Positions 1,657 through 20,498 of a stretch of DNA of 64,000 nucleotides are shown one piece after another (positions within the stretch are counted from its first letter, which is position 1; each line of letters begins with the position of its first letter). The position numbers were made by a program, and so were the translations under genes. Under the pieces are notes generated by a model. That model made no database searches. It saw only the letters and a list, made by a program, of their open reading frames with translations, and had not been told where the DNA came from. Source of the stretch: Falsiroseomonas oleicola (GTDB lineage Bacteria; Pseudomonadota; Alphaproteobacteria; Acetobacterales; Acetobacteraceae); the NCBI RefSeq assembly GCF_019029495.1, contig NZ_JAERQM010000004.1, positions 62,001-126,000 on the forward strand, read 5' to 3'.

Positions 1657-1657
1657 C

Positions 1658-2454: not shown

Positions 2455-2500
2455 CCGACCGATCGGTCGGGAGGCTATGCGCAGGCCAGCCAGGGCGCAA
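2455..2500 (-). promoter_or_regulatory. Promoter with perfect TetR-type palindromic operator (site 1)
   Basis: CCGACCGATCGGTCGG at 2455-2470 is a perfect 16-bp palindrome, 27 bases upstream of the hydratase start. Read leftward, a -35-like TTGCGC (2500-2495) and a -10-like CATAGC (2479-2474) precede it, so the palindrome sits where transcription should start. The same arrangement recurs at five other promoters in the window. Binding by the adjacent TetR proteins is inferred. Confidence 0.8.
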
Positions 2501-2518
2501 GTGGCGAAAATGCGAGGA

Positions 2519-3286
2519 CTACTCTACGGCCTTCTTCCTCTGGCGAACGGCCTTGGCGGGTGGCGCCGCGCGCAGGCCGTCCAGCAGCAGGTTGCAGAAC
2601 TGGCCCGCGATCTCGGGCGCCTTCAATGGCCCGGCCGGGTTGTACCAGCGCGGCATCCAGTTGATGGTACCGAGCACCAGCCGGCCGGCGATCTTCACGT
2701 CGCCGATCTTCAACTCGCCCGAATCGATGCCCGCCTGCAGGATGTCCCGCAGCAACTGCTCGTAGCGGTCGCGCCAGGCGACGCGTTCCTTGCGTGCCCG
2801 CGCTTCCGGGTCCGACCAGAAGGCGGTGGAGCCCGCGATCCAGGCCCAGCGGAAGGCCTCGAAGAAGGTTGCCGTCTCCACGATGAAGCGCCGCAGCCGG
2901 TCCACGGCCGGCAGCGTGGCATCATCATGACGCGCGACATGCAGGTAGATCGATTTGGTCGCGCCCATGGCCAGCGGCCGCAGGATCGAATCCTTGTCCG
3001 GGAAGTAGTGGTACAGCGTGGCCTTGGAGATTCCGCACTCCGCCGCGATGTCGCGCATGGAGACGCCATCGAACCCCCGTTGGGCGAATTGCCGGCAGGC
3101 CACCTCGTAGATCTGGATGATGCGGCCGCTCGGCACCTCCCCATTGCCGTCTAGCCCCAGCAGGCCCGCCAGGTCGTCCACTGGCGGGGGCGGCGCGACC
3201 TCGCGCTTGCGCGGGCTAGCGCGGCGTGATGCCGACGCGGCGGATGACTTCGCCCCACTTCGCGACTTCGTTTCGGAGTAGGCCAC
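2519..3286 (-). CDS. TetR/AcrR family transcriptional regulator (copy 1)
   Basis: A 255-residue regulator with an N-terminal helix-turn-helix (RDIAAECGISKATLYHYF, then PDKDSI) and a ligand domain rich in Trp and Arg (FRWAWIAGSTAFWSDP). I chose the GTG at 3286 because GGAGGA lies 5 bases upstream. This start overlaps the preceding Bug gene by 71 bases and gives a Ser/Arg/Lys-rich tail before the HTH. A GTG at 3181 is an alternative with a weaker ribosome site. It is a clear paralogue of the regulator at 10346-10987, with an almost identical recognition helix. By position it is likely the repressor of the palindrome-bearing promoters. A lysine/arginine-rich C-terminal tail (RQRKKAVE) is present. 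Confidence 0.9.
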   Translation of the reverse strand: MAYSETKSRSGAKSSAASASRRASPRKREVAPPPPVDDLAGLLGLDGNGEVPSGRIIQIYEVACRQFAQRGFDGVSMRDIAAECGISKATLYHYFPDKDSILRPLAMGATKSIYLHVARHDDATLPAVDRLRRFIVETATFFEAFRWAWIAGSTAFWSDPEARARKERVAWRDRYEQLLRDILQAGIDSGELKIGDVKIAGRLVLGTINWMPRWYNPAGPLKAPEIAGQFCNLLLDGLRAAPPAKAVRQRKKAVE

Positions 3287-4229
3287 CCAGTTCCTCCGGC
3301 GTGCTCGAAACCGGCGGAGATGCGCCGGCCGCCCGCATTCTCTCACGCAGCGCCGGGTCTGCAAGCACCTTCACCAAGGCCTGGTTCAGCCGCTGGATAA
3401 TGGGCCGCGGCGTGCCGGAACGGACGCAGACATAGTTCATCACCGTGACCTCGAAGCCCGGGAGCGTCTCCGCCACCGTTGGAACCTCCGGCAGGTCGGG
3501 CGAACGGCGGGCGCTGGTCACGGCGATGGGGCGCAGATTGCCGGCCTCGATCAGCGGGATCATCGGCCCGTAGGTGTCGATCGAGATATCGACCCGCCCG
3601 GCCGCCACATCCTGCAGCGCCAGGCCGGTGCCGCGATAGGGTACGTGCGACATGCGGATTCCGGCCTGCATGCACAGCAATTCACCCGAAAGATGGCTGC
3701 CCGCGCCGATGCCGGAACTGGCGAAAGTGAGCTCCCCGGGCCGCGCCTTGGCCAGCGCGATCAGTTCCGCCACGCTGCGGGCCGGGACGTCCTTGTTCAC
3801 CACCATCAGGTAGGCGCCCTGCGTCAGCAGGCTGACCGGGGCGAAGTCGCGGTCCGGGTCATAGGGCAGGTTGGCCATCAGGAAGCGATTGGTGACCAGA
3901 GGCCCCGGCGTGCCGTAGAGCAGCGTGTAGCCATCCGCGGGTGCCTGCGCCACCGCGGCGGTGCCGATGGTGCCGCCGGCGCCGCCGCGATTCTCCACCA
4001 CCACGGTCTGGCCCAGCTCCGCGCCCAGCGGTTCCGCCACGAAGCGCGCCGTCAGGTCCGCGCCGCCGCCCGGCACGAAGGGCACGATCATGCGGAGCGG
4101 CCGCGTGGGGTAGGATTGCGCCAGGCCACCGCGCGGCAGCAGGGCTGCGGTGGCGAGCGTGACGGCGGCGGCGAAAGCGCCGCGGCGGCCGAGGTCGCCC
4201 TTGTCCCGGTTGCGGTCCTGCGCGGTCAT
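3216..4229 (-). CDS. Bug-family tripartite tricarboxylate transporter solute-binding protein (copy 1)
   Basis: A 337-residue periplasmic binding protein of the TctC/Bug family. The N-terminus has a twin-arginine-like signal (LGRRGAFAAAVTLATAAL), then the mature start SYPTRPLRMIVPFVPGGGAD, the usual family opening. GQTVVVENRGGAGGTIG and YPGR-like later blocks also fit. It should bind an organic acid or amide in the periplasm. No TctA/TctB membrane components are nearby, so the permease must be elsewhere or the protein may act in sensing. GGAAGGA precedes the ATG at 4229. Promoter/operator site 2 lies 54 bases upstream, and the TetR gene overlaps its 3' end. Confidence 0.94.
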   Translation of the reverse strand: MTAQDRNRDKGDLGRRGAFAAAVTLATAALLPRGGLAQSYPTRPLRMIVPFVPGGGADLTARFVAEPLGAELGQTVVVENRGGAGGTIGTAAVAQAPADGYTLLYGTPGPLVTNRFLMANLPYDPDRDFAPVSLLTQGAYLMVVNKDVPARSVAELIALAKARPGELTFASSGIGAGSHLSGELLCMQAGIRMSHVPYRGTGLALQDVAAGRVDISIDTYGPMIPLIEAGNLRPIAVTSARRSPDLPEVPTVAETLPGFEVTVMNYVCVRSGTPRPIIQRLNQALVKVLADPALRERMRAAGASPPVSSTPEELGGLLRNEVAKWGEVIRRVGITPR

Positions 4230-4282
4230 GTTGATGTTCCTTCCCCGTTCCGGCGACGCTCCTTCACCGGCGCCGCATTCGG

Positions 4283-4337
4283 ACCAACCGAGCGGTCGGT
4301 CCCGGACCGCATAGCGCCATCACGCCCGGCGACGCAA
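4283..4337 (-). promoter_or_regulatory. Promoter with TetR-type operator (site 2)
   Basis: ACCAACCGAGCGGTCGGT at 4283-4300 is an 18-bp near-palindrome matching the other sites. Read leftward it follows -35-like TTGCGT (4337-4332) and -10-like TATGCG (4313-4308) with an 18-base spacer. It should drive the Bug and TetR genes at 4229-2519. Confidence 0.75.
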
Positions 4338-4363
4338 GTCGCCAGGCCGCGCGCCGTGACGGC

Positions 4364-4416
4364 TTGCGGCAGCCGCGGCACGCGCATAGTCTCCGGCAAC
4401 CAACCGATCGGTCGGT
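4364..4416 (+). promoter_or_regulatory. Promoter with TetR-type operator (site 3)
   Basis: ACCAACCGATCGGTCGGT at 4399-4416 follows -35-like TTGCGG (4364-4369) and -10-like CATAGT (4385-4390) on the plus strand. It lies 41 bases upstream of the peptide-type solute-binding protein. Sites 2 and 3 share one divergent intergenic region, about 100 bases apart. Confidence 0.75.
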
Positions 4417-4457
4417 ATGGATGAGCGCCGGAACGGCGCCGTGGGAGGAAACTGCAG

Positions 4458-6065
4458 ATGCTCCAACATGCTCGTCGCAGGAAGGGCCTCGGTGCCCTGC
4501 GCCGGATCGTCGCAGGGCTGGCGGCAGTGCCGCTCGGGGTCGGGCTGGCCGCCGCGCAGACGCTCACCATGGGCGTCGGCTCGCCAGTATCCTCCATCGA
4601 TCCGCATTACCATCTGCTGCGCAGCAACAGCGAAGTCTCGCAGATGCTGTTCGACACGCTGCTGATGACCGATGCGCAGGCGCAGCTGCGCCCGGGGCTG
4701 GCCGAGAGCTGGCGCGCCATGGGCGAGGAAGGCTGGGAATTCCGGCTGCGGGAGGGGATCCGCTTCCATGACGGCACGCCCTTCACCGCCGATGACGTGG
4801 CCTTCACGCTGGCACGCATCCCCACCATCACCGGCCCCGGCGCATCCTTCACCACCCATGTCCGCCCGGTCAGCCGGGTGGAGGTGGTGGATGCCCGCAC
4901 GATCCGCCTGTACACGCGCGCCCCTGCGCCGCTGCTTCCGGTCTATCTCAGCCAGGTACCGATGCTCGGCCGAAGCCTGCATGCGGATGCGACGACGGCC
5001 GATTTCAACAGCGGCCGCGTCGCCATTGGCACCGGCCCGTTCCGCTTCGGCAGCTACACGCCCGGCGACCGGCTGCAGGTGGCGCGGAATGAGGGCTATT
5101 GGGGCGAGAAGCCCGAATGGGCCAGCGTGAACTACCGCATGATCTCGAATGACGGCGCGCGCACCGCGGCGCTGCTGGCCGGGGATGTCGATTTCATCGA
5201 CCAGATCCCGACGGCGGATCTCGACCGCCTGCGCGCCGACAGCCGCTTCCGCGTGGCGGAGACGACGAGCCTGCGCGTCATGTACATCACACTGGATGCG
5301 GAGCGTACACCGCCGGTGCCGCAGATGGCCGCGGCGGATGGCGGCGCGCTGGCGCGCAACCCGCTGGCGGATCGCCGCGTGCGGCAGGCGCTGTCGCTGG
5401 CAATCGACCGGCGGATGATCGTGGACCGCGTGATGCAGAAGGCCGCGCTCGCCACCGGCCAGTTCATGCCGCCCGGTGCCTTCAGCCATATCGACAACCA
5501 TCCGGTTCCGGCGGCGGATCCCGAAGCCGCGCGCCGCCTGCTGGCCGAGGCCGGCTACCCGCAGGGCTTCCAGATGACGCTTGCGGGGTCCAACGACCGC
5601 TACATGAATGATTCGCGCGTCGTGCAGGCGATCGGCCAGATGTGGACCCGCATCGGCATCCGCACCACGGTGGAGGCGCAGCCCTATGCCACCTTCATAG
5701 GCCGCGCCACGCGTCGGGAGTTTCCGGCGGCGCTGCTGACCTGGGGCAATTCCACCGGCGATGCCTCCGTCCTGCTGAATTCGGTGCTGCGCAGTCGAGA
5801 CCGCGAGCGTGGCCACGGCGCCGCCAACCGCACCCATTACAGCAATGCGGAGGTGGATCGCCTGACCGGCGAGGCGGAGCGCGAGATGGATGATGCGAAG
5901 CGCGACCGCCTGCTGCAGCAGGCGAGCCTGGCCGCGATCGATGACGTCGCGCTGGTGCCGCTGTACCTGCAGAACGCGCTGTGGGCGATGCGCCGCGACT
6001 TGACCTATACGGCCCGCGCCGATGAGCGGAACGAGCCCGCCGCGGTGCGCCGCACCACCCGCTGA
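4458..6065 (+). CDS. ABC transporter solute-binding protein, SBP_bac_5 (peptide/opine/nickel) family (copy 1)
   Basis: A 535-residue periplasmic binding protein. A basic N-terminus and hydrophobic signal peptide end near AAAQ (about residue 34). The family hallmark FRLREGIRFHDGTPFTADDV follows, then GTGPFRFGSYTPGD and ADRRVRQALSLAIDR. GGAGGA is 8 bases upstream of the ATG at 4458. No permease or ATPase gene is adjacent, so it is an orphan binding protein. Its own operator-bearing promoter (site 3) places it under the same control as the acyl-CoA genes. It is clearly paralogous to the protein at 21347-22933. The ligand is probably a hydrophobic or peptide-like substrate whose carbon skeleton is degraded as CoA thioesters; this last point is inference. 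Confidence 0.95.
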   Translation: MLQHARRRKGLGALRRIVAGLAAVPLGVGLAAAQTLTMGVGSPVSSIDPHYHLLRSNSEVSQMLFDTLLMTDAQAQLRPGLAESWRAMGEEGWEFRLREGIRFHDGTPFTADDVAFTLARIPTITGPGASFTTHVRPVSRVEVVDARTIRLYTRAPAPLLPVYLSQVPMLGRSLHADATTADFNSGRVAIGTGPFRFGSYTPGDRLQVARNEGYWGEKPEWASVNYRMISNDGARTAALLAGDVDFIDQIPTADLDRLRADSRFRVAETTSLRVMYITLDAERTPPVPQMAAADGGALARNPLADRRVRQALSLAIDRRMIVDRVMQKAALATGQFMPPGAFSHIDNHPVPAADPEAARRLLAEAGYPQGFQMTLAGSNDRYMNDSRVVQAIGQMWTRIGIRTTVEAQPYATFIGRATRREFPAALLTWGNSTGDASVLLNSVLRSRDRERGHGAANRTHYSNAEVDRLTGEAEREMDDAKRDRLLQQASLAAIDDVALVPLYLQNALWAMRRDLTYTARADERNEPAAVRRTTR

Positions 6066-6302: not shown

Positions 6303-7277
6303 TCAGCGGCGACTGCGCTCAATCGCCGCCAGTGCGATCGGCGCCCATTTCGCCCGTTCCGCCGCGCCGCGCCGCGCGAACTCCTCGGCCGTGCTGTGCA
6401 GCGGGGCCATGCCCTCGCGCTCGAAGGTCGCGACCACGGAAGGGTCGGCGGTGGTGGCGTTGATCGCGCGGTTCAGCTTCTCGATCACCGCCGGCGGCGT
6501 GCCCTTCGTTGTCATGATGCCAAACCAGCCGCTGACCACGAAGTCGCGGAAGCCCTGCTGCTGCATCGTCGCTACATCCGGCAGCAATGCCAGCCGCTCC
6601 GGCGTCGGCGCCGCCAGGGCGCGCAGGGTACCATCGCGGATCTGCGGCAATGCGGTTGGCGTGGTGGCGAAGCAGAAATCGATGCGGCCGGCCATCACAT
6701 CGACCAGCGCCGGCGCGCCGCCGCGGTAGGGTATCTGGATGGTCTCGATCCCCGCATCCTTATCCAGCAGCAACCCGGCGAGCCAGGGGCTGGAACCGAC
6801 GCCGGGATGCGCCCAGGACAGCTGACCCGGCCGGGCCCGTGCCGCCGCCACAAGGTCCGCCACGCTGCGCCAGGGGCGGCTTGCCGGCACCACCAGCACC
6901 GTCATCACATCCGCCACCAGCGAGACCGGCGCGAGGTCGTCCATCGGCTTGATCGGCAGGCTCGGCTCGGTGATCGTGTTGATGATCAACGAGCCCATGT
7001 TCCCGGTGCAGATGGTGTAGCCATCGGCCGTGGCGCGGGCGACCGGTTCGAAGGTCAGCATGCCGGCACCACCGCCCTTGTTCTCGACCACCACATTCTG
7101 GCCGAGGCGGGCAGAGATGCCGGGGGCGACGAGCCGCGCCGTCAGGTCCTGTGATCCGCCCGCGGCGGAACCGACCAGCATGCGGATCGTCCGCGTCGGC
7201 CAGGCGGGATCCGCACGGGCCGTAGCGGTGGCGGCGAGCGACAGCGCGGTACCTGTCAGCAGACGACGTGTGATCAT
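6303..7277 (-). CDS. Bug-family tripartite tricarboxylate transporter solute-binding protein (copy 2)
   Basis: A 324-residue TctC/Bug protein starting MITRRLLTGTALSLAATATARA, a typical signal peptide, and then DPAWPTRTIRMLVGSAAGG. The blocks GQNVVVENKGGGAGMLTFEP and LSWAHPGVGSSPWLAG fit the family. GGAGGA precedes the ATG at 7277; the longer open frame upstream lacks this. It is a single-gene unit behind promoter/operator site 4. No TctA/B partner is in the window. It differs considerably from the Bug proteins at 3216 and 13162, so the three probably bind different acids. Confidence 0.94.
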   Translation of the reverse strand: MITRRLLTGTALSLAATATARADPAWPTRTIRMLVGSAAGGSQDLTARLVAPGISARLGQNVVVENKGGGAGMLTFEPVARATADGYTICTGNMGSLIINTITEPSLPIKPMDDLAPVSLVADVMTVLVVPASRPWRSVADLVAAARARPGQLSWAHPGVGSSPWLAGLLLDKDAGIETIQIPYRGGAPALVDVMAGRIDFCFATTPTALPQIRDGTLRALAAPTPERLALLPDVATMQQQGFRDFVVSGWFGIMTTKGTPPAVIEKLNRAINATTADPSVVATFEREGMAPLHSTAEEFARRGAAERAKWAPIALAAIERSRR

Positions 7278-7357
7278 GGCTTCCTCCCTGGCATGGCCGA
7301 AGGCGCCCAGGCGCGCATCGGCGCGTTCCTCCACCGACCCGGCGTCCTTGACGACGC

Positions 7358-7409
7358 TTCGACCGGCCGGTCGGTCGAAACGCTAAACCCGGGTTCCGGC
7401 AGCGGTCAA
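7358..7409 (-). promoter_or_regulatory. Promoter with TetR-type operator (site 4)
   Basis: The core ACCGGCCGGTCGGT (7362-7375) lies within the extended near-palindrome 7358-7379 (TTCGACC...GGTCGAA). Read leftward it follows -35-like TTGACC (7409-7404) and -10-like TTAGCG (7386-7381) with a 17-base spacer. The -35 box overlaps the stop codon of the upstream alpha/beta hydrolase gene. Confidence 0.78.
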
Positions 7410-8239
7410 GCGATCTGCGGCAGGCTCAGCAGCAGCGCGTCGAAATCCGCCGCGGCCTCATGCGCCACCCAATGCCCGGCGCCATCCAGCAGGTGAATCC
7501 GGGCATCGGGGCGCAGCGCATGCAGCCGCGTCATCCGCTCCGGCAGCATGTCCGCGCAGAAATTGTCGCGGCTGCCCCAGACCACCAGCGGCGCCACCGC
7601 AAGGCGTGGCAGAGCGGCGCCGAGGTCAAGTCCCTCGCGCGGCAGCGGCGTGGCGCGCAGCCTGCTGGCGTTGCGGTCCTCGATCTCCATCGCCAGCCCA
7701 TCCACGGAATCGGGATCCGCCAGCATCAGGCTCAGGATGTTCGCGCGCAGCGCCTCGGCGCGGGCTTCCGGCGGCAATCCGCGCAGGCGCCGCGTTGGCC
7801 GCGGGGTGAACGCGCCGAGCCCACCGGGCGCCGCGAGCACCAGGCGGTGCACGGCCTCCCGCTCCGCCGCCGCCAGCAGCACGGCGAGCGCGCCACCGAA
7901 GGAGAAGCCGACGACCGCATAACGCGCATCGGCACCGAGGATCCGCCGCAGCCCCTGGCCCAGCATCGCCGCAAGGCCCGCATGCAGCGTGCCGGGCGGC
8001 GCCAGGTCCGAATCCCCCATGCCGGGCAGATCCGGCACCAGCAGGCGATGGCGTCGCGCGAGAACCGGGATGTTGCGCGCCCAGTGCATCCAGGACCCGC
8101 CCCAGCCATGCAGCAGCAGCAAGGGCGGCCCTTCGCCCCAGCCGCGCCAGATCATCACCCCCTCGCCGCAGGGCGTGGACCAGCGCGCGGCCTCGCGGTC
8201 CAGCCGGTCCAGCAGCGTGGCGGCCTCCTCGCGCTCCAT
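7406..8239 (-). CDS. Alpha/beta hydrolase
   Basis: A 277-residue alpha/beta hydrolase. The oxyanion/HG motif is LLLLHGWGGSWMHW, the nucleophile elbow is GFSFGG (G-x-S-x-G), an acid follows in VVWGSRDNFC, and the catalytic His is in DGAGHWVAHEA. The ATG at 8239 (MEREEAATLLDRL) lies 4 bases past the stop of the enoyl-CoA hydratase, so it is the third gene of the CaiB-hydratase-hydrolase operon. It may act as an esterase, thioesterase or C-C hydrolase on a pathway intermediate. The sequence alone does not decide which. Confidence 0.92.
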   Translation of the reverse strand: MEREEAATLLDRLDREAARWSTPCGEGVMIWRGWGEGPPLLLLHGWGGSWMHWARNIPVLARRHRLLVPDLPGMGDSDLAPPGTLHAGLAAMLGQGLRRILGADARYAVVGFSFGGALAVLLAAAEREAVHRLVLAAPGGLGAFTPRPTRRLRGLPPEARAEALRANILSLMLADPDSVDGLAMEIEDRNASRLRATPLPREGLDLGAALPRLAVAPLVVWGSRDNFCADMLPERMTRLHALRPDARIHLLDGAGHWVAHEAAADFDALLLSLPQIA

Positions 8240-8243
8240 CGGC

Positions 8244-9068
8244 TCAGCACCCGGTGAAGCGTGGCAGGCGCTTCTCCATGAAGGCGGTGCGGCCTTCGCG
8301 GTAATCCGCGCTGTCGGCGCAGGTGGCGGCCAAGGCCTCCAGCCGCGCCAGGTCGCGCTGCGCCGGGTCCTGCAGCACCGCCGCAATGCCGAGCCGGGCC
8401 GCCTGGATGGCCAGCGGCGCGTTCTGGGCGATCTCGGCTGCCAGGGCCAGCGCCTCCGCCTCCAGCGCATCATCGGGCACGACCTGGTTGATCAGGCCGA
8501 TCCGCTCCGCCTCCTCCGCCCCGATGCGGCGCGTGCTGAGCAACAGCATGCGGGCGCGGGCCGGGCCGATCAGGGAGACCAGCAGGCGCAGCCCCTCGAA
8601 GCCATAGGCGATGCCGAGCCGCGCGGCGGGGATGCCGAAGCGGCTGCCGCTGCCGGCCAGGCGCAGATCCGCCGCCATGGCGATGGCCAGCCCGCCGCCC
8701 AGGCAGTAGCCGCGGATCGCCGCGATCATCGGCTTGCCGAAGCGGCGCAGCGCATCGCGGCCCGTCTGGATGCGCGCCGCATAGTCCCGCTGCGCCGCAT
8801 GGTCGCCGCGCTGCTTGTCGAACTGGCTGATATCGGCGCCGGAGACGAAGGCCTGGTCGCCGGCGCCGGTGAGGATGACGACGCGCACCGCGGGATCCGC
8901 TTCCATGCCCTGCAGAATCTCTGCCAGCCCCTGCCACATCTCGACGGAGATGGCGTTGCGCTTCTCCGGCTGGTTGAAGGTGACCAGGCCGATGCCGCCG
9001 GCCTGCGCCGCCAGCATCCGCCCCTCCGCGAAGGCGCGCGGCGTACCGAGATCGGTGAAGCGCTTCAT
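8244..9068 (-). CDS. Enoyl-CoA hydratase/isomerase family protein
   Basis: A 274-residue crotonase-family protein with AFVSGADISQF and GYCLGGGLAIAMAADLR (oxyanion hole) and FGIPAARLGIAYGFEG. In that last block the canonical catalytic Glu position is Ala, so the reaction may be isomerisation, hydrolysis or decarboxylation rather than simple hydration. This comes from my alignment by eye. The start ATG at 9068 overlaps the CoA-transferase stop (ATGA). It is the middle gene of the operon at 10261-7406. Confidence 0.92.
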   Translation of the reverse strand: MKRFTDLGTPRAFAEGRMLAAQAGGIGLVTFNQPEKRNAISVEMWQGLAEILQGMEADPAVRVVILTGAGDQAFVSGADISQFDKQRGDHAAQRDYAARIQTGRDALRRFGKPMIAAIRGYCLGGGLAIAMAADLRLAGSGSRFGIPAARLGIAYGFEGLRLLVSLIGPARARMLLLSTRRIGAEEAERIGLINQVVPDDALEAEALALAAEIAQNAPLAIQAARLGIAAVLQDPAQRDLARLEALAATCADSADYREGRTAFMEKRLPRFTGC

Positions 9069-10261
9069 GGCGCGGCTCCGGTCACGGCATCGATCTCGGC
9101 CTCGCTCAGCCCGGCCTCGCGCAGCACCTCCCGCGTATGTTCGCCGGCCTCGGGCGTCGGCCGCCGGACGGCGCGCGCATGGCCCGAGACGTCGAGCGCC
9201 GAGCTCACCACATCGACGCGCCCGAGCGCCGGGCTCTGCATCGGCATCGCCAGGCCGAGATGCTGCACCTGCGGATCGGCGAAGACCTGGTCGATGGCGT
9301 AGATCGGCCCGCAGGGAATGCCGGCTTCCTCGAACAGCTCGATCCAATGCGCGGCGGGCTGGGTGCGCGTCACCTCCGCGATGGCGGCGTTGATGGCCAG
9401 GCGATCGGCGCTGCGGCCGGCCTGCGTTGTCCAGCCAGGCTTCTCCGCCCAGTCGGGCCGGCCGATGGCGGCGCAGAAGCGGGTGAACAGGCGGCTGGAA
9501 CTGGCGGCGATGTTGATGTGGCCGTCGCGGGTGGGGAAGACGCCGGTCGGGATGCCGGTCGGGTGGTCGTTGCCCGCCTGGCCGGCCACCTCCTGGTCCA
9601 CCAGCCAGCGCGCCGCCTGGAAATCCAGCATGAAGACCTGCGCCTGCAGCAGCGAGGTGGTGACCCAGCGGCCCAGCCCCGTCCGCGTGCGTTCGAACAG
9701 CGCCATTATGATGCCGAGCGCAAGCAGGTTGCCGGCGGTGAGGTCCGCCACCGCGATGCCGGCCCGCACCGGTCCCTGGCCCGGCAGGCCGGTGATCGAC
9801 ATCAGGCCGCTCATCCCCTGCGCGATCTGGTCCACACCGGCGCGATCGGCATAGGGGCCGTCCTGGCCGAAGCCGCTGATGCTGCCATAGACGATGCGCG
9901 GATTGACGGCATGGACATCCGGCCAGGCGATGCGCAGGCGCCGCTTCACGGCGGGCCGCATGTTTTCCACCACCACATCGGCATCCCGCAGCAGGCGCAG
10001 GAAGGCGGCGTGGCCTGCGGGGCTTTTCAGGTCGAGCTGGATGGCGCGCTTGTTGCGGTGCAGGTTCTGGAAATCGGCGCCGTGACGGCGCCCGGCGACA
10101 TCCTCGCCCGGCCCCGCCGGCGGCTCGATCCGGATCACATCCGCGCCCCAGTCGGCCAGGTGGCGCACGCAGGTCGGACCGGCGCGGGCCAGCGTCAGGT
10201 CCAGCACGCGAAGGCCCGCGAGCGGCCCCGCGGCGGGTGCTTCATGAGGGGCTTCCGGCAT
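9065..10261 (-). CDS. CaiB/BaiF family CoA-transferase
   Basis: A 398-residue class III CoA-transferase. Near the N-terminus it has LAGLRVLDLTLARAGPTCVRHLADWGADV and the family's GxDFQNLHRNKRAIQLDL-type region; the conserved catalytic Asp sits in AVADLTAGN. It moves CoA between carboxylic acids and can activate the substrate. I chose the ATG at 10261, with GGGAGG upstream, over two in-frame TTG codons. It is the first gene behind promoter/operator site 5, which has the most perfect palindrome of the set. Confidence 0.95.
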   Translation of the reverse strand: MPEAPHEAPAAGPLAGLRVLDLTLARAGPTCVRHLADWGADVIRIEPPAGPGEDVAGRRHGADFQNLHRNKRAIQLDLKSPAGHAAFLRLLRDADVVVENMRPAVKRRLRIAWPDVHAVNPRIVYGSISGFGQDGPYADRAGVDQIAQGMSGLMSITGLPGQGPVRAGIAVADLTAGNLLALGIIMALFERTRTGLGRWVTTSLLQAQVFMLDFQAARWLVDQEVAGQAGNDHPTGIPTGVFPTRDGHINIAASSSRLFTRFCAAIGRPDWAEKPGWTTQAGRSADRLAINAAIAEVTRTQPAAHWIELFEEAGIPCGPIYAIDQVFADPQVQHLGLAMPMQSPALGRVDVVSSALDVSGHARAVRRPTPEAGEHTREVLREAGLSEAEIDAVTGAAP

Positions 10262-10285
10262 CAACAACCTCCCTTGCCTCGGCCG

Positions 10286-10334
10286 TCGACCGACCGGTCG
10301 GTCGATTAGGCGCGCAGCCGCGCCACCTTGGCAA
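10286..10334 (-). promoter_or_regulatory. Promoter with perfect 20-bp TetR-type operator (site 5)
   Basis: TCGACCGACCGGTCGGTCGA at 10286-10305 is a perfect 20-bp palindrome. Read leftward it abuts -10-like CCTAAT (10310-10305), with -35-like TTGCCA at 10334-10329 and an 18-base spacer. It lies 25 bases upstream of the CoA-transferase start and 40 bases below the stop of the second TetR gene. Confidence 0.85.
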
Positions 10335-10345
10335 GAGGGGCGTGT

Positions 10346-13165: not shown

Positions 13166-14139
13166 TCGATCCGCAGGTTCAGGCGCTGCACGATGGCCTG
13201 TTCCTTGACCACCTGCTGGCGCGCGAAGTCCCCATAGGCCGCGCTGTCCATATACATCACGGGCTGGTCGAGCCCCTGCAGATAGGCGAGGGAGTCCGGG
13301 TGGTAGAGCGCTTCCTTGAAGGCGTCGTGGAGCACCTTCACGACGCCCGGGTCCATGCCCTTCGGCCCGGCGAGGCCATAGGGCGATGTGGCGACGATAT
13401 CGTAGCCGAGATCCTTCAGCGTCGGCGCATCAGGGTAGCGGGCGATGCGCTGCGGCGTCCAGACATTCAGCAGCCGCAGCCGGCCATCCAGTACCAGGGA
13501 GGACCAATGGCTGGCCGTTGCCACCGCATCGATCGTGCCGCTGAGCAGCGCGCTGGTCAGTTCGCTGCCGCCGCGATACGGCGCATGCAGCCATTCGACC
13601 TTCTCGATCTCCGCGATGCGGTCCATCACCACATGCGATTCGGTGCCGACGCCGGGCGAGCCGTAGGAGATGCGCCCGGGCTGGCGCTTGCTCGCCGCCA
13701 GGAAATCCGCCCAGGTCCTGTGGGGCGAATCCGCGCGCACGACCAGGCCGAAAGTGTAGCCCGTGAGGCAGATGATGTAGGTGAAATCCTCCACCGGATC
13801 ATAGGGCATGCGCGGCATCATATAGGGCACGCGGAAGACGGAGCCGGGGATCTGCGCCAGCGTGTGACCATCCGCCGGCTCCGATGACAGGGCACGGGCG
13901 GCCAGCGTGCCGTTGGCGCCGGCGCGGTTCTCGATCACCACCGGCTGGCCCAGCTTCGGCCCGACCAGATCCGCCAGCACGCGCGTATAGACATTGGGGC
14001 CGGGCGCCCAGGCGGCGAAGATGCGGACCGGACGGTTGGGAAAGCCAGCGCGCGGTTGGGCCAGGGCTGGCAGGGCAAGACCGCCGGCCGCCGCGGCCAA
14101 CACAGCGCGTCGCGTCAAGGTTGTTCTGCTGTTCTTCAT
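13162..14139 (-). CDS. Bug-family tripartite tricarboxylate transporter solute-binding protein (copy 3)
   Basis: A 325-residue TctC/Bug protein. A twin-arginine-like signal (TLTRRAVLAAAAGGLALPALA) is followed by FPNRPVRIFAAWAPGPNVYT and GQPVVIENRAGANGTLAAR. AAGGAGGAAAC stands just before the ATG at 14139, an excellent ribosome site. It is embedded in the acyl-CoA operon, 22 bases below the small acyl-CoA dehydrogenase and overlapping the synthetase by 4 bases. This ties uptake of one acid directly to its activation to a CoA thioester. No membrane subunits are present. Confidence 0.95.
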   Translation of the reverse strand: MKNSRTTLTRRAVLAAAAGGLALPALAQPRAGFPNRPVRIFAAWAPGPNVYTRVLADLVGPKLGQPVVIENRAGANGTLAARALSSEPADGHTLAQIPGSVFRVPYMMPRMPYDPVEDFTYIICLTGYTFGLVVRADSPHRTWADFLAASKRQPGRISYGSPGVGTESHVVMDRIAEIEKVEWLHAPYRGGSELTSALLSGTIDAVATASHWSSLVLDGRLRLLNVWTPQRIARYPDAPTLKDLGYDIVATSPYGLAGPKGMDPGVVKVLHDAFKEALYHPDSLAYLQGLDQPVMYMDSAAYGDFARQQVVKEQAIVQRLNLRIE

Positions 14140-14161
14140 TGTTTCCTCCTTGCTCAATGCG

Positions 14162-15298
14162 TCAGGCGGCGGCGGAGACCTCCGCCGCCAGCGCGCGCAG
14201 ATGGTGGTCGGCATCACCGAAGGTCGTGTCGATCGCGGCGAGCCGCTTGAAGGCGTGGCCGGCGGCGTATTCCGTGGCGATGCCGATGCCGCCATGCATC
14301 TGCACCGCCTGCTGGCCGATCAGCCGCGCGGAACGGCCGATCTGCACCTTCACGGCCGAGAGCGCCGCGCGCCGCGCCGCCGCGGGTTCCTCCAGCATCA
14401 TGGTCGCGTACATCGCCATGCTGCGCGCCTGTTCCAGCGCCACCATCATGTCGGAGGCACGATGCTGCAGCACCTGAAAGCTGCCGATCGGCGCGCCGAA
14501 CTGCTTGCGCGTCTTCAGGTAGTCCAGCGTCATCGCATGCAGGGCGGACATGGTGCCGACCGCTTCGGCCGCCAGCGCCGCGATCGCCTCATCCACCACG
14601 CGCTCGACCAAGGCCAGACCATCCTCGGCATTGCCCAGCACAGCCTCGGCCCGGGCGGCGGAGAGGGTGATCTCCGCGCCGCGCTGGCCATCGACCATGG
14701 CATAGCCCTGCCGCAGCACGCCCGGCGCATCGCCGCGCAGCAGGAAGACGCCGATGCCGCCGCGATCATGCCGCGCCCCGGCGCTGCGCGCGGTCACCAG
14801 CAGCCAGTCCGCCGTGTCGCCATGCAGCACCACGCTCTTGCGGCCTTCCAGCACCCAGCCATCGCCGTCGCGCCGCGCCGTGGTGGTGATGTCGGACAGG
14901 CTGTAGCGGGATTGCGGCTCGGCCTGGGCGAAGGCGAGCAGCGCCTCGCCGGCGGCGATGGCGGGCACCATGCGCTGGCGCAGCGCCGCATCGGCGCCGT
15001 GGCGCAGCAGCCCGCCGCCGAGCACGACGGTGCTCAGCCAGGGCTCCAGCGCCAACACCTCGCCCAGCGCCTCCGCCACCAGCATCGTCTCCACCGGGCC
15101 ACCGCCGAATCCGCCATCCTCCTCGGCGAAGGGCAGGCCCAGCAGGCCGAGCTCGGCGTAGCGGCCCCACATCGCGCGGCTCCAGCCCGGCGCCTCCGTC
15201 TGGTAGTTGGCGCGGCGGTTGAAGGCGTAGTGATCGGCCAACAACCGCCGCAGGTTGGACTGCAGCAGCCGCTGTTCCTCCGTCAGGTCGAAATCCAT
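14162..15298 (-). CDS. Acyl-CoA dehydrogenase, small-subunit type
   Basis: A 378-residue acyl-CoA dehydrogenase starting MDFDLTEEQRLLQSNLRRLL. It has GLPFAEEDGGFGGGPVETM, the middle-domain DGWVLEGRKSVVLHGDTADW, and the C-terminal QMHGGIGIATEY block. It begins 3 bases below the stop of the large-type dehydrogenase at 15302-16510. The pair is organised like the alpha2beta2 dehydrogenases known from steroid side-chain catabolism in actinobacteria. Whether the two proteins assemble here is inference. Confidence 0.95.
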   Translation of the reverse strand: MDFDLTEEQRLLQSNLRRLLADHYAFNRRANYQTEAPGWSRAMWGRYAELGLLGLPFAEEDGGFGGGPVETMLVAEALGEVLALEPWLSTVVLGGGLLRHGADAALRQRMVPAIAAGEALLAFAQAEPQSRYSLSDITTTARRDGDGWVLEGRKSVVLHGDTADWLLVTARSAGARHDRGGIGVFLLRGDAPGVLRQGYAMVDGQRGAEITLSAARAEAVLGNAEDGLALVERVVDEAIAALAAEAVGTMSALHAMTLDYLKTRKQFGAPIGSFQVLQHRASDMMVALEQARSMAMYATMMLEEPAAARRAALSAVKVQIGRSARLIGQQAVQMHGGIGIATEYAAGHAFKRLAAIDTTFGDADHHLRALAAEVSAAA

Positions 15299-15301
15299 GC
15301 G

Positions 15302-16510
15302 TCAGAGTCCCATGAAGGCCTTGGCCATGATCTGCCGCTGGATCTCGTTCGTGCCGCCGAAGATCGAGAGCTTGCGCCAGTTGAAATAGAGCGGCGCGGC
15401 GCTGCGTGCCCATTCGGGCATCAGTTCCGGCGCATTGCTGCCTTCCGCATCCGGGTCACCTGGCGCCGCCAGGCCGTAGGGGCCGGCGACTTCCATCATC
15501 AGCTCCGTGATGGATTGCGCGATCTCCGAGCCGCGCAGCTTCAGGATGGAGGAGGCCGGGTCCGCCTGGCGCGATTCCCCGGCGCGGCGGCCGCCGGCCA
15601 GCACGTGCAGCACTGTCATCTCCAGCGCCTTCAGCTCCACCTCGATGGCGGCGATTTTTTCCCGGATGCGCTGCTGCTCGATCAGTGGGCGGCCGTTCTC
15701 CTGTGCCTCGCCGGCCATGAATTTCAGCCGCCGCAGCCGTTCCTTGCTGACACCGACGCGCGCCGCGCCGGTGCGTTCATGGCCGAGCAGAAGCTTGGCG
15801 CAATCCCATCCGCGATTCTCCTCGCCGACCAGATTGCTGACGGGCACGCGGACATTGTCGAAGAAGACCTCGTTCACCTCATGCCCGCCATCAATGGTGA
15901 TGACGGGTCGCACGGTGATGCCCGGGCTTCGCATGTCGATCAGCAGGAAGGAGATTCCCTCCTGCCGCTTCGCGGCCTGCGGGTTGGTGCGGACCAGGCA
16001 GAAGATCCAGTCGGCGTTCTGGGCATAGGTGGTCCAGGTCTTCTGGCCATCCACCACGTAATGGTCACCATCCCGTACCGCCCGCGTCTTCAACGAGGCG
16101 AGGTCGGAGCCCGCGCCGGGCTCGGAGAAGCCCTGACACCACCAGTCATCGATGTTGCGGATGCGCGGCAGGAAGTGCCGCTTCTGCGCCTCCGTCCCGA
16201 AGGCGATGATGATGGGGCCGACCATGTTGGTGTTGAAGCCGAGCGGCTGCGGCGCCGGGGTCTGCTGCAATTCCTCGCGGAATATGTAGCGCTGCACGGC
16301 GGTCCAGCCAGTGCCGCCATGTTCCTCCGGCCAGTCCGGCACGGCCCAGCCGCGGGCGTTCAGGATGCGCTGCCAGGCGACGGTCTGCGCCTTGGTCGGC
16401 ACGCGGCCCTCGATCATGCGCTGGCGCGTCTCGGCCGGCAGGTTGGCCTCTATGAAGTCGCGCACCTCGGCGCGGAAGGCGCGTTCCTCCGCGGTGAATC
16501 GCAGATCCAT
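15302..16510 (-). CDS. Acyl-CoA dehydrogenase, large-subunit type
   Basis: A 402-residue acyl-CoA dehydrogenase with GWAVPDWPEEHGGTGWTAVQ, WWCQGFSEPGAGSDLASLKT and VDGQKTWTTYAQNADWIF, ending in IFGGTNEIQRQIMAKAFMGL. It is a clear paralogue of the protein at 484-1656 in length and motifs. Its ATG at 16510 shares one base with the stop of the hydratase/dehydrogenase fusion gene (TGATG). It should oxidise the same acyl-CoA series that the fusion protein then hydrates and oxidises. Confidence 0.96.
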   Translation of the reverse strand: MDLRFTAEERAFRAEVRDFIEANLPAETRQRMIEGRVPTKAQTVAWQRILNARGWAVPDWPEEHGGTGWTAVQRYIFREELQQTPAPQPLGFNTNMVGPIIIAFGTEAQKRHFLPRIRNIDDWWCQGFSEPGAGSDLASLKTRAVRDGDHYVVDGQKTWTTYAQNADWIFCLVRTNPQAAKRQEGISFLLIDMRSPGITVRPVITIDGGHEVNEVFFDNVRVPVSNLVGEENRGWDCAKLLLGHERTGAARVGVSKERLRRLKFMAGEAQENGRPLIEQQRIREKIAAIEVELKALEMTVLHVLAGGRRAGESRQADPASSILKLRGSEIAQSITELMMEVAGPYGLAAPGDPDAEGSNAPELMPEWARSAAPLYFNWRKLSIFGGTNEIQRQIMAKAFMGL

Positions 16511-18600
16511 CAGGCGGACTCCCCGGCGCGCGGCGCACCGCCCAGCAGGCTGCCGCCGGCGGCGGCCAGGCGCTGGATCAGCGGCGCGGGTTGCAATGTC
16601 TCATCCCCCGTCAGCGCCGCGTAATGCGCCAGCCGGTCGCGCACCGTCGCCAGCCCGAGCCCGTCGGCCCAGAGCATCGGCCCGCCGCGCCAGGCGGGCC
16701 AGCCGAAGGCATGCACGAAGATCACGTCGATGTCGGAGGCGCGGGCGGCGATGCCCTCCTCCAGGATGCGCGCACCCTCATTCACCATGGGCAGGATCAG
16801 GCGTTCGCGAATCTCCGCCGCGTCATGGCGGCGCTGCGGCACGCCCAGCCCGGCCGCCACGCGCGCGATCAGCGCCGCCACCTCCGGGTCCGGCTCCGCC
16901 TTGCGGCTGCCCTCCGCGTAGCGGTAGTAGCCGCGGCCGGTCTTCTGGCCGAGCCGCCCCTCGGCCACCAGCGCATCTGCAACCGGGAAGACCGCGCCGC
17001 GCCGTCGCCGGGCCGCCGCGCCGATATCGAGGCCGGCCAGGTCGCCCACCGCGAAGGGGCCCATCGGGTAGCCGAATTCCGTCATCGCGGCATCGACCTG
17101 TTGCGGCAGGGCGCCTTCCTGCAACAGGCGTTCGGCCTGCGCGCCGCGGCGTCCGGTCATGCGGTTGGCGACGAAGCCGTCGCAATTGCCGACCACCACC
17201 GGCACCTTGCCGAGCAACCCGCCGAGCGCCACGCCGCGGGCGAGCGACAGGCCGCTGGTCGCCTTGCCGCGGACGATTTCCAGCAGCTTCATCACATTGG
17301 CCGGGCTGAAGAAATGCAGGCCCAGCACGTCGCCCGGCCGTGCCGTCGCCGCGGCCATACGGTCGATGTCGAGCGTCGAGGTGTTGGAGGCGAGCAGCGC
17401 GCCCGCACCGGCCAGGCGGTCGATCTCGGCAAAGATGCGCTGCTTCAGCGCCATATCCTCGAACACCGCCTCCACCACCACATCCGCGCCGGCCAGGGCT
17501 GCGAGATCGGTGCTGCCGGACAGCAGCGCGCGGCGCCGCTCCATCTCCGCCTGATCCAGCCGGCCACCCTGCACGCTGCGCTGCCAGTTCTGCGCGCAGC
17601 GATCGAGGCCACGTTGCAGGGCGGCCGCATCCATGTCGATGACGGTGACGGGGATGCCCGCATTGGCGAAGCACATGGCGATGCCGCCGCCCATGGTGCC
17701 GGCCCCGATCACCGCAGCACGGCGCACCGGCGGCGGCGCGATATCCGCCGGAATGCCGGCCACCTTCTGGGCCTCCCGCTCCGCGAAGAACAGGTGGCGC
17801 AGGGCGCGGGACTGCTCGCCCTGCACCAACTCCTGGAACAGCGCGCGCTCGCGATCCAGGCCTTCCTCCAGCGGCAATTCGGTGGCGAGGCGCACCGCCT
17901 CGGCGCAGGCCAGCGGGGCGGCCTGGCCGCGCGCGCGCTTGCGGACCTCCGCGATCGCCGCGGCCAGCGACTGCGGGTCATGCGGAGCGCTGCGGTCGCG
18001 TGCCAGGGGCAGGGGGCGGCCTTCCGCCAGGGCGGTGGCGAGGAAGCGGCAGGCGGCGTCCGGAAGATCGCCATCGGCCACCGCCTCCACCAGCCCCATC
18101 TCCAGCGCCGCCTCCGCCGTCACCGGCTCGCCGCTCGCGATCATCCGCAGCGCGGCCTCGGCACCCACCAGCCGAGGCAGGCGTTGCGTGCCGCCGCCGC
18201 CGGGCAGGATGCCGCGCTTGACCTCCGGCAGGCCGAGCAGCGTTCCGGGCGCCGCCACGCGGGCATGGCAGCCCAGCGCCAGTTCCAGCCCGCCGCCGAG
18301 CACGCGGCCATGCAGCGCGGCCACCACCGGCTTGCCCAGCGTCTCGATCAGCTCGATCAGGTCGCGCAGCAGCGGCGGTATGCGGGGCTTGCCGAATTCG
18401 CGCATCTCCGCGCCAGCGCTGAACATGCGTCCGGCGCTGGCCAGCACGATGCCGCGCACCGCCGGATCGGCACCGCAGCGGCGCAGCGCCGAGTCCAGCG
18501 CCGTGCGCAGCGGCGTCGCCAGCGTGTTCACGGGCGGGTTGTCGAGGGTCAGCACGGCGATGCCATCGGCCGCCATGCGCATCCGCACCGGCTCGCTCAC
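16510..18600 (-). CDS. Bifunctional enoyl-CoA hydratase / 3-hydroxyacyl-CoA dehydrogenase (FadB/FadJ-like)
   Basis: A 696-residue fusion. A crotonase domain (about residues 1-190) has RMFSAGAEMREF, GRVLGGGLELALGC and GLPEVKRGILPGGGGTQRLP. An NAD-binding domain begins near residue 300 (AAVIGAGTMGGGIAMCFANA). Two 3-hydroxyacyl-CoA dehydrogenase C-terminal segments follow, with VGNCDGFVANRM. It performs hydration and the NAD-dependent second oxidation of beta-oxidation. I chose the GTG at 18600 because it overlaps the DUF35 gene by 4 bases (GTGA). In-frame ATGs at 18582 and 18576 are alternatives. The length matches FadJ-type proteins. Confidence 0.94.
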   Translation of the reverse strand: MSEPVRMRMAADGIAVLTLDNPPVNTLATPLRTALDSALRRCGADPAVRGIVLASAGRMFSAGAEMREFGKPRIPPLLRDLIELIETLGKPVVAALHGRVLGGGLELALGCHARVAAPGTLLGLPEVKRGILPGGGGTQRLPRLVGAEAALRMIASGEPVTAEAALEMGLVEAVADGDLPDAACRFLATALAEGRPLPLARDRSAPHDPQSLAAAIAEVRKRARGQAAPLACAEAVRLATELPLEEGLDRERALFQELVQGEQSRALRHLFFAEREAQKVAGIPADIAPPPVRRAAVIGAGTMGGGIAMCFANAGIPVTVIDMDAAALQRGLDRCAQNWQRSVQGGRLDQAEMERRRALLSGSTDLAALAGADVVVEAVFEDMALKQRIFAEIDRLAGAGALLASNTSTLDIDRMAAATARPGDVLGLHFFSPANVMKLLEIVRGKATSGLSLARGVALGGLLGKVPVVVGNCDGFVANRMTGRRGAQAERLLQEGALPQQVDAAMTEFGYPMGPFAVGDLAGLDIGAAARRRRGAVFPVADALVAEGRLGQKTGRGYYRYAEGSRKAEPDPEVAALIARVAAGLGVPQRRHDAAEIRERLILPMVNEGARILEEGIAARASDIDVIFVHAFGWPAWRGGPMLWADGLGLATVRDRLAHYAALTGDETLQPAPLIQRLAAAGGSLLGGAPRAGESA

Positions 18601-18989
18601 GCGGCGGCTTCCGGCGTGAACATCGGCATCGGGGGCGCGCCGTCCCGCGGCACGAAGATCACGCGCACGGGCTGGCCGACATGGATGGCGTCGAATTCGC
18701 AATCGACGATGTTCGTCATCATCGTCGTGCCCTCCTCCAACCGCACATAGGCGATGGCATAGGGTTCCGGCGCGCGACGCATCACGCTGTGGCTGTAGAT
18801 GGTGCCGCGGCCGGAGGCTTCCTGCCATGCCGTGGCGCCGCCGCAATGCGGGCAGATCGGGCGGGGATACCAATGCACGCGCTTGCAGGCGTCGCAGCGG
18901 CGCAGCAGCAGGCGGCCTTCGCCGGCTGCCTGCCAGAAGGGTGCCGAATCCGGCGAGGCCGGGGAAAAGGGAATGCTGCGGCCAGCCAT
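18597..18989 (-). CDS. Zn-ribbon / OB-fold protein (DUF35 family)
   Basis: A 130-residue protein with a rubredoxin-like zinc ribbon (C32-x2-C35 and C46-x2-C49) followed by a short OB-fold domain (TIYSHSVMRRAPEPYAIAYV). This family partners with thiolase-like enzymes; in sterol degradation such a domain is required by the aldolase Ltp2. It starts 5 bases after the thiolase-like gene stop, so a complex with that protein is the natural reading. The longer upstream frame overlaps the thiolase and is not needed. Confidence 0.92.
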   Translation of the reverse strand: MAGRSIPFSPASPDSAPFWQAAGEGRLLLRRCDACKRVHWYPRPICPHCGGATAWQEASGRGTIYSHSVMRRAPEPYAIAYVRLEEGTTMMTNIVDCEFDAIHVGQPVRVIFVPRDGAPPMPMFTPEAAA

Positions 18990-18994
18990 GCGGG

Positions 18995-20164
18995 TTACAT
19001 CCGCTCCAGGATCAGGGTTGCGCTGCCATGGCGGGTGCCGAGCGACCCGCCGGTGCCATGCGCCAGCGCCAGCGCACAATCCTTCACCTGCACCGCCGGG
19101 TGCGCCTCCCCGCGCAATTGCCGCACGGCCTCGATCACCTTGGTCATGCCGCCGCGATTCGAGGGATGGTTGTTGCAGAGCCCACCGCCATCCGTGTTGA
19201 AGGGCAGGCGCCCGACGCCGGAGATGAGGTTGCCATCGGCGACGAAGCGGCCACCCTGGCCCTTCTCGCAGAAGCCCAGATCCTCCAGATGCATGAGCAC
19301 GGTGATGGTGAAGCTGTCATAGATGCTGGCGTAGCGGATATCGGCGGGGGTCACGCCGGCCTCGGCAAAGGCGCGCGGGCCGGACCAGCGCGCGCCGGTG
19401 AAGGTGAGGTCCACATCCCCGCCCATCTGGCCCTTCACCGCCTCACCGGCACCACGCAGCATGACCACCGGGCGCTGGAGGCTGCGCGCGATCTCCGGCC
19501 GCGCGACCACCAATGCACCGCCGCCATCGCTGATGACGCAGCAATCGAGACGGTGCAGCGGGGCGGCGACCAGCGGGGAATTCACCACATCCTCCACCGT
19601 CACCACCTCCCGCAGCATGGCATGCGGGTTGTGCTGGGCATGGTGGCTGGCGGCGACCTTGATCCAGGCGAGCTGTTCGGAGGTGGTGCCGAATTCATGC
19701 ATGTGGCGGGTCGCGCACATCGCGTACATGTTCGCGATGGTGGGGCCGTAGGGGTATTCCCACTGCACATCCGGCTGCGCCGGATTGCCGGCGCGCGCCG
19801 TGGTGCCGGTGGCAACCCCCTCGCTGCGCGGACGGCCCGCCAGCGTGATCAGCGCGATGTCGCATTTCCCGGCGGCGATGGCCTGTGCGGCATGCGCGAC
19901 ATGCAGAAGGTAGGAGGAGCCGCCGACATCGGTGGAATCCACATGCCGGACGCGCAGGTTGAGGTAGTCCACCATCGACAGGGGGCCGAGGCCCGGCGCG
20001 TCACCGGCGCAGAAATAGCCATCGACGTCGCGCAGCGTCAGCCCGGCGTCAGACAGCGCGCCGAGCGCCACCTCCGCATGCAACTGCGCCAGCGAGGTGT
20101 CCGGCGCCTTCCGCGTCGGATGCTCGTAGGCGCCCACGATGCAGGCCGCGCCACGGAGGCTCAC
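18995..20164 (-). CDS. Thiolase-like protein (SCP2-thiolase / acetyl-CoA acetyltransferase family)
   Basis: A 389-residue thiolase-fold protein. The N-terminus SLRGAACIVGAYEHPTRKAP is typical of the acetyl-CoA acetyltransferase group that travels with DUF35. GGGLCNNHPSNRGGM keeps the thiolase His. Where classical thiolases have the nucleophilic Cys this protein has STDVGGSSY, and the C-terminal CxGGG-type Cys is replaced (HGTGGSLG). That suggests aldol-type or non-thiolytic chemistry, as in Ltp2. I prefer the GTG at 20164 by comparison with the usual protein start. An in-frame ATG at 20251, 30 bases below the operator, would add 29 residues. First gene of the long leftward operon. Confidence 0.93.
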   Translation of the reverse strand: MSLRGAACIVGAYEHPTRKAPDTSLAQLHAEVALGALSDAGLTLRDVDGYFCAGDAPGLGPLSMVDYLNLRVRHVDSTDVGGSSYLLHVAHAAQAIAAGKCDIALITLAGRPRSEGVATGTTARAGNPAQPDVQWEYPYGPTIANMYAMCATRHMHEFGTTSEQLAWIKVAASHHAQHNPHAMLREVVTVEDVVNSPLVAAPLHRLDCCVISDGGGALVVARPEIARSLQRPVVMLRGAGEAVKGQMGGDVDLTFTGARWSGPRAFAEAGVTPADIRYASIYDSFTITVLMHLEDLGFCEKGQGGRFVADGNLISGVGRLPFNTDGGGLCNNHPSNRGGMTKVIEAVRQLRGEAHPAVQVKDCALALAHGTGGSLGTRHGSATLILERM

Positions 20165-20498
20165 CGCCAGGCCCCATGAAGCGCGCGCACGGCCGATTGG
20201 TGCGCGTTGCTGCGCAGGGGATTGCCCGCTTCCGACGGCATCAGGTCGCATCACCTTTCGATCGTGTTTCCGAACACAGGCCGACCGGCCGGTCGGTCGA
20301 GAGCAGGTAAGCAGCAATGCCCCGCGGCGGCAAGCCTGTTTGATCCGTCCGCTTCGCTGCGAAATGATGTGCCCGGACGGCCTGCGGGGCATCGCGGAAA
20401 TGCCGGTCGCAAGCCACCTCATGTTTTCGACAGCCGGCTCTCAATCACCCTGGCGCCGATCGAAGGCGGCGATAGACTGCGGCTCGGAGGAGACAGAC
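20165..20498. other. Divergent intergenic region between thiolase-like and hydrolase genes
   Basis: This 334-base stretch holds no convincing gene. Its left part is the 5' leader of the thiolase-like gene and includes the alternative ATG at 20251. Promoter/operator site 6 occupies 20281-20333. The remainder up to 20498 should contain the promoter of the rightward hydrolase gene, with its ribosome site GGAGGAG at about 20486-20492. I see no clear -35/-10 pair there. Confidence 0.6.
20281..20333 (-). promoter_or_regulatory. Promoter with perfect TetR-type operator (site 6)
   Basis: CCGACCGGCCGGTCGG at 20281-20296 is a perfect 16-bp palindrome. Read leftward, -35-like TTGCCG (20333-20328) and -10-like TTACCT (20310-20305) are 17 bases apart and precede it. 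It should control the seven-gene operon thiolase-like, DUF35, FadB/J-like, two dehydrogenases, Bug and synthetase. Confidence 0.8.

Follow-up and report, generated by a model that had tools for sequence, protein, structure and literature searches.

What controls the uptake and acid-degradation genes gathered in the first 20 kb of a 64,000-nucleotide stretch of Falsiroseomonas oleicola DNA? The stretch (positions 62,001 to 126,000 of contig NZ_JAERQM010000004.1; G000:C25:62001-126000 in our numbering, and hereafter the window) belongs to a genome of 5.6 Mb in 30 contigs, about 70% GC. Six versions of the palindrome CCGACCGRYCGGTCGG, aligned on their centre, lie in an 18-kb cluster of it. An earlier note on this DNA had listed six such sites and called three of them perfect palindromes of 16-20 bp. 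All six were found again as versions of CCGACCGRYCGGTCGG, and operators 1, 5 and 6 are perfect over 16, 20 and 16 bp (Table 1). With a probability of roughly 0.8, these palindromes serve as operators for a TetR-type repressor system that is local to the cluster and regulates itself, and the candidate repressors are two paralogous TetR proteins encoded in the cluster, TetR1 and TetR2.

Whole-genome matches to CCGACCGRYCGGTCGG with at most one mismatch fall at five sites (six overlapping places), all inside the cluster, where about 0.026 would be expected by chance in 18 kb, taking 8 matches per 5.6 Mb. The genome scan for which the earlier note had called thus places these close matches non-randomly, whereas two-mismatch matches are scattered: operator 2 (4283) belongs to that class, and 47 further such sites lie outside the cluster. 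Within the window, a 14-mer version of the motif has 22 matches at up to three mismatches, as compared with 4.57 (standard deviation 2.25) in 100 shuffles. A CCGA/TCGG tetranucleotide repeat runs through the sites. Every one of them also matches the 14-mer at a 4-bp shift (again at up to three mismatches), and in the genome scan the full 16-mer itself matches twice, 4 bp apart, at 7358, 10286 and 20281. A perfect 14-mer at C5:39820 was considered as an additional target and dropped, since it lies inside a 247-amino-acid reading frame.

The operators are placed as uniformly as they are clustered. Taking the likely gene starts, all six are intergenic and each stands ahead of a catabolic or uptake gene. 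At every one, a TTGNNN hexamer, a 15-18 bp spacer and a TA-containing hexamer, the -35/-10-like pair of the earlier note, are followed, 3-10 bp on, by the 16-bp operator core. This promoter criterion was fixed post hoc on the six window sites. Its background in the window test was 89/20000, and on both strands of positions 1-21500 it picks out ten distinct elements, six of them at operators. The relatives provide the fair test. Of the 26 operator-gene rows drawn from 14 related loci, 19 have a promoter-like pair 3-18 bases ahead of the operator, against 98 of 20000 random stretches (about 0.5%) and 1 of 26 on the opposite side of the same operators. Sites left out of these rows were L067:1503 (inside the sbp5 match), L062:17987, L052:16581 and those of L087-L089. 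For the aligned-column counts, 6 of 35 rows were dropped (L065, three L076 rows, L068 and one L061 row), and the remaining 29 include the six window rows.

Homologs of TetR2 at E <= 1e-30 occur in 11 of 150 genomes of the family, its own included. From a scan of named genomes the best 80 loci were kept (L060-L139) and the operator was searched for within about 10 kb; pairs such as L049/L061 and L054/L069 were each taken as one locus and not counted twice, and the mapping of window proteins leaves out L077-L086. Among these best 80 loci, operators that differ from the motif at one position or none occur in 11 of the 16 Acetobacteraceae TetR loci (L060-L075), in all 11 Bradyrhizobium loci (L076-L086), in 2 of the 3 betaproteobacterial loci (L087-L089) and in 7 of the 50 others, mostly more distant (L090-L139); the reversed pattern matches in 1 of the 80. 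The recurrent core consists of sbp5 (a solute-binding protein gene), two back-to-back operators, tctC (another), tetR1 or no tetR, ech1 (enoyl-coenzyme A (CoA) hydratase, often with its own operator), a dehydrogenase and an acyl-CoA synthetase. In other Acetobacteraceae, operators precede the orthologous tctC, sbp5 and ech1 at the same positions as operators 2, 3 and 1; the site before ech1, with 0-2 mismatches, is found in L060, L063, L064, L068, L069 and L071. The clustering across the genome, the promoter-operator order in relatives and the presence of operators before orthologous genes together support the local TetR regulon that the earlier note had proposed.

Both candidate repressors score over the Pfam cut-off for TetR_N and PF17932 (TetR_C_24), with 67.3 and 83.5 bits for TetR1 and 71 and 74.5 bits for TetR2. 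They are the only PF17932 proteins over cut-off in the genome, and both lie in the cluster; a third match, on C28, is sub-threshold. Together with the agreement between the cluster's sites and published operators of related TetRs (below), this strengthens the assignment of the regulator, which the earlier note had put forward from inference. The two proteins are 57% identical over 208 residues and have the recognition-helix segment GISKATLYHYFPDKDSI in common. Among solved structures, TetR2 is matched best by 3vpr (E 2.7e-31), which we take to be PfmR of Thermus. In a tree with 13 of 26 inner branches open, TetR1 falls in a clade of eight rows (support 100/99) and TetR2 pairs with the protein of L060 (99/96). 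In L069 a TetR1-type protein is accompanied by three operators (0-2 mismatches), and G141, the genome taken to correspond to it, has one match at E <= 1e-30. L060, for which the locus only was considered, has a TetR2-type protein and likewise three operators (0-2 mismatches). Since each type is thus found with operators, either clade appears to serve such sites, and we infer that both repressors recognise the same ones.

The most serious competitor to this reading is that TetR1 alone, as part of the conserved module, uses the operators and that TetR2 is a leftover or has come to bind a different site. It would fit the recurrence of the tctC-tetR1-operator-ech1 arrangement in L064, L069 and L071, the modest identity of TetR2 to TetR1 and the lack of an operator directly before tetR2. 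The identity of GISKATLYHYFPDKDSI in the two proteins argues the other way, as does L060, in which the sister of TetR2 is the sole TetR2/TetR1-type match and the usual tetR1 slot is empty. So does AT-5844 (L061, taken as G107), whose genome has a single match at E <= 1e-30, with one-mismatch operators on both sides of its tetR. On balance we regard action by TetR1 alone as unlikely, at something like one chance in four.

The operator is found with more than one version of the recognition helix. In the Bradyrhizobium loci (L076-L086) the TetR is 46-47% identical, carries the helix SKSLLYHH and is accompanied by the variant CTGACCGATCGGTCGG, apparently in a related regulon; L076 has sites before tetR and before ech1, plus one more. 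An early idea that the operator is tied to TetRs with a SKATLYH helix was dropped, as these Bradyrhizobium TetRs have CTGACCGATCGGTCGG or its complement and two-mismatch variants stand before ech1 in L058 and L059. In one set of five regions with a SKSLLYHH or SKALLYHH helix, however, no site at up to one mismatch occurs.

The operators could in principle be bound by some other TetR whose gene lies outside the cluster, for example a PaaR-like protein, and the box is indeed common to Burkholderia paa operons. One locus from a Burkholderiaceae metagenome-assembled genome (L122, 4296-10534) carries paaK, paaA, paaC and paaE, then a TetR with the helix core SKATLYHY, and, about 0.6 kb ahead of its PaaK match, a one-mismatch box that immediately precedes a 175-amino-acid frame. 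The F. oleicola genome, however, encodes no further PF17932 protein over cut-off, its near match on C5 is inside a long reading frame, and from locus to locus the operators accompany the cluster's TetR genes, which makes an outside regulator very improbable. Least likely of all is that the palindromes arose by chance in 70% GC DNA or are structural (terminators or nucleoid sites) and serve no regulator: two-mismatch versions are common and totals are not enriched, but the sites are tightly clustered, stand uniformly after promoter elements and recur before orthologous genes, and no terminator-like site was found in 1-20000, a range that ends short of operator 6.

Several observations nevertheless weigh against a local, autoregulated TetR system. 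The genome holds no more matches with at most one mismatch than the reversed pattern gives (6 versus 8), and the looser 13-mer core ACCGRYCGGTCGG has five sites in the cluster and seven outside. Since these counts are not enriched, the evidence lies in clustering and placement and not in number; enrichment was dropped as an argument for this reason, and also because a match at that stringency turns up in 108 of the 150 genomes of the family. No promoter is called by a stock sigma-70 consensus scan of 1-20000, a range that includes all the sites except operator 6, and the -10 hexamers match poorly; the window promoters are therefore presumably weak, high-GC ones. A promoter-like pair is missing from 7 of the 26 rows in relatives. 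Five of the 16 Acetobacteraceae loci have no site with at most one mismatch (L062, L065, L070, L073 and L075): L062 and L065 have two-mismatch sites before tctC or tetR, and L070, L073 and L075 have none, the last being a 9.9-kb contig. The loci are, moreover, related by descent, so their counts are not independent. Finally, operators 4, 5 and 6 are predicted from sequence and position in this genome only. Many genomes of the family encode homologs of the thiolase and the CoA-transferase (148 and 173 of 299, respectively, at E <= 1e-120). Among the 58 best-scoring non-self matches from the 299 genomes searched for each (29 thiolase and 29 CoA-transferase loci, with about 1.5 kb of flank), none has a counterpart of operator 5 or 6 with at most one mismatch, and L197 has the only two-mismatch site. 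Since 0 of 58 loci have one, it seems that the second module gained its operators in this lineage, or that the counterparts lie outside the loci read.

Table 1. Predicted operators and genes of the cluster, in window coordinates; the unit column gives the operator behind which each gene lies.
Feature	Position	Strand	Unit	Remarks
Operator 1	2455..2470	-		CCGACCGATCGGTCGG, perfect 16-bp palindrome, before ech1; -35 TTGCGC 2500-2495, -10-like CATAGC 2479-2474
Operator 2	4283..4300	-		imperfect, 2 mismatches, before tctC-tetR1; -35 TTGCGT 4337-4332, -10-like CTATGC 4314-4309
Operator 3	4399..4416	+		imperfect, before SBP_bac_5 gene; -35 TTGCGG 4364-4369, -10-like CATAGT 4385-4390
Operator 4	7358..7379	-		22 bp, 10/11 pairs, before tctC_b; -35 TTGACC 7409-7404, -10-like TTAGCG 7386-7381
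Operator 5	10286..10305	-		perfect 20-bp palindrome, before CoA-transferase operon; -35 TTGCCA 10334-10329, -10-like CCTAAT 10310-10305
Operator 6	20281..20296	-		CCGACCGGCCGGTCGG, perfect 16-bp palindrome, before thiolase operon; -35 TTGCCG 20333-20328, -10-like TTACCT 20310-20305
Acyl-CoA dehydrogenase	484..1719	-	1	weak PimC likeness
ech1, enoyl-CoA hydratase	1658..2428	-	1	ATG at 2428
tetR1	2519..3181	-	2	TetR_N + TetR_C_24; probable GTG start at 3181; predicted cotranscription behind tctC
tctC_a, TctC-type solute-binding protein	3216..4229	-	2	
SBP_bac_5 solute-binding protein	4458..6065	+	3	
tctC_b, TctC-type solute-binding protein	6303..7334	-	4	
Alpha/beta hydrolase	7406..8239	-	5	start uncertain
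ech2, enoyl-CoA hydratase	8244..9068	-	5	
CoA-transferase family III	9065..10267	-	5	likely start downstream of listed TTG
tetR2	10346..10987	-	6	TetR_N + TetR_C_24; last in thiolase run after a 60-bp gap, predicted cotranscription
ADP-forming acyl-CoA synthetase	11048..13165	-	6	
tctC_c, TctC-type solute-binding protein	13162..14160	-	6	
Acyl-CoA dehydrogenase, PimD-like	14162..15298	-	6	488.3 bits, cut-off 652.7
Acyl-CoA dehydrogenase, PimC-like	15302..16510	-	6	589.9 bits, cut-off 623.85
FadB/FadJ-like enoyl-CoA hydratase/3-hydroxyacyl-CoA dehydrogenase	16510..18588	-	6	start uncertain
ChsH2/DUF35-type OB-fold protein	18597..18989	-	6	between thiolase and FadB-like gene
Thiolase	18995..20161	-	6	start uncertain; PRK08142 subfamily over cut-off

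The genes behind the operators fall into six putative transcription units, cotranscription being judged from gene spacing (Table 1). The operon behind operator 1 extends about 2.7 kb to the left of the window, with another dehydrogenase and an ADP-forming acyl-CoA synthetase, and the long run behind operator 6 has gaps of at most 60 bp. The earlier note had the operators cover two solute-binding protein genes and a TetR gene. We find three solute-binding genes, tctC_a, the SBP_bac_5 gene and tctC_b, to be first in their units. Both tetR genes stand in units behind operators, neither of them first: tctC_a and tetR1 follow operator 2, and tetR2 ends the thiolase run behind operator 6, a layout suited to autoregulation.

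A separate promoter between the thiolase and fadB was considered and dropped, since the gap holds the DUF35/ChsH2-like gene, whose position beside the thiolase we take to be reminiscent of BbsAB- or Ltp2-type thiolase/aldolase pairs. The PimC and PimD likenesses of the dehydrogenases score below the NCBIfam curated cut-offs, and a dicarboxylate or alicyclic-acid pathway is for that reason a lead and not a finding. Divergent from the thiolase is a beta-lactamase-like gene (PF13354; 20139-21341, +); operator 6 is on the upstream side common to the two, and its promoter-like element faces the thiolase. A second copy of the thiolase, 83% identical, is encoded at G000:C25:390189-391352, and there is no operator with at most one mismatch outside the cluster. 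The adjoining catabolic group at 21347-26845 (SBP_bac_5, Ldh_2, FAA hydrolase, TauD and an IclR-type regulator) likewise has no copy at that stringency. Farther along the window lies a tRNA-Ser (gct) gene (62862-62953, +).

How might such a system work? Each operator follows closely on the -10 element and overlaps or adjoins the expected transcription start, where binding of one TetR dimer, or of two that overlap at a 4-bp offset, would block initiation; at several sites the tetranucleotide repeat would allow two dimers at this offset. TetR1 and TetR2, having the same recognition helix, would probably repress from the same operators, and with both tetR genes in runs behind operators the circuit would be one of negative feedback. 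The substrate is probably a dicarboxylic or an alicyclic/aromatic acid, taken up via the TctC/SBP systems and activated to its CoA thioester. This thioester, or a beta-oxidation intermediate, could then release the repressor and induce the uptake and beta-oxidation genes together. Release of the TetRs by acyl-CoA is suggested by their relatives and by the gene content of the cluster. It can also be imagined that two repressors with one recognition helix and different ligand domains form a gate, in which full opening would need the release of both, each by a CoA thioester of its own. On this view the second module (the thiolase and CoA-transferase operons) would have gained operators in this lineage alone, and the second repressor would have come with it or helped to recruit it. 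We offer this as a speculation that is probably wrong in at least some of its parts.

A limited literature search found no description of this motif or cluster. Its proposed regulatory logic is a familiar one, in which an acid-degrading pathway is switched on just when it is needed. A PimC/PimD-like acid-degradation cluster of the Acetobacteraceae is thereby given a regulon that can be put to the test, complete with predicted operators and promoters and with candidate regulators. TetR1 and TetR2 are also candidate acyl-CoA biosensors, and the loci that have a TetR1-type protein only, a TetR2-type protein only, or both may offer a tractable case of a duplicated repressor and of operators spreading over a second pathway.

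A local TetR regulon with two paralogous predicted repressors would be a further case of a known kind. On the assumption that 3vpr is PfmR, the closest solved structure to TetR2 is that of PfmR (TTHB023) of Thermus thermophilus. This regulator has acyl-CoA metabolism genes among its targets and a 16-bp consensus, (a/c)Y(g/t)A(A/C)YGryCR(g/t)T(c/a)R(g/t), which the sites at 2455 and 20281 fit at 16/16 positions and from which each of the remaining four differs somewhere (PMC7022988). PfmR differs in that it comes from another phylum and its targets are dispersed over the genome; overlap with a second TetR, SbtR, is reported for some of its sites, but not a pair of paralogues in a single cluster (PMC7022988). 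FadP of the Burkholderiales is likewise a TetR repressor of beta-oxidation and fatty-acid degradation genes, and a Ralstonia strain grows better on adipate once it is deleted; it is described, however, as unique to betaproteobacteria and with a larger average regulon (PMC5343134, PMC12543098). MbdR of Azoarcus also represses a CoA-thioester pathway, is induced by the first CoA intermediate and has operators that span transcription starts, but its operator, ATACN10GTAT, is unlike that of the cluster (PMC4424350).

The paa system invites the same comparison. In B. cenocepacia, negative control of the paaA promoter depends on ACCGACCGGTCGGT, an effect attributed to the TetR-type PaaR, and disruption of its gene, paaR (BCAL0210), derepresses the paa promoters (PMC2770484). 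The PaaR system resembles the cluster in its TetR-type repressor, its dual overlapping inverted repeat and the spread of its operators over several promoters of a single pathway of acyl-CoA catabolism (PMC2770484). As a stand-in for PaaR itself, the TetR beside the paa genes in L122 was compared with TetR2, and the two are 32% identical. The operators of PaaR are reported to lie between -35 and -10, whereas those of the cluster come after -10, and PaaR controls paa genes (PMC2770484). The cluster has two predicted repressors, and no paa gene was found among the units behind the six operators, to which that search extended. What would be uncommon in F. oleicola is the use of two sister repressors on one operator set.

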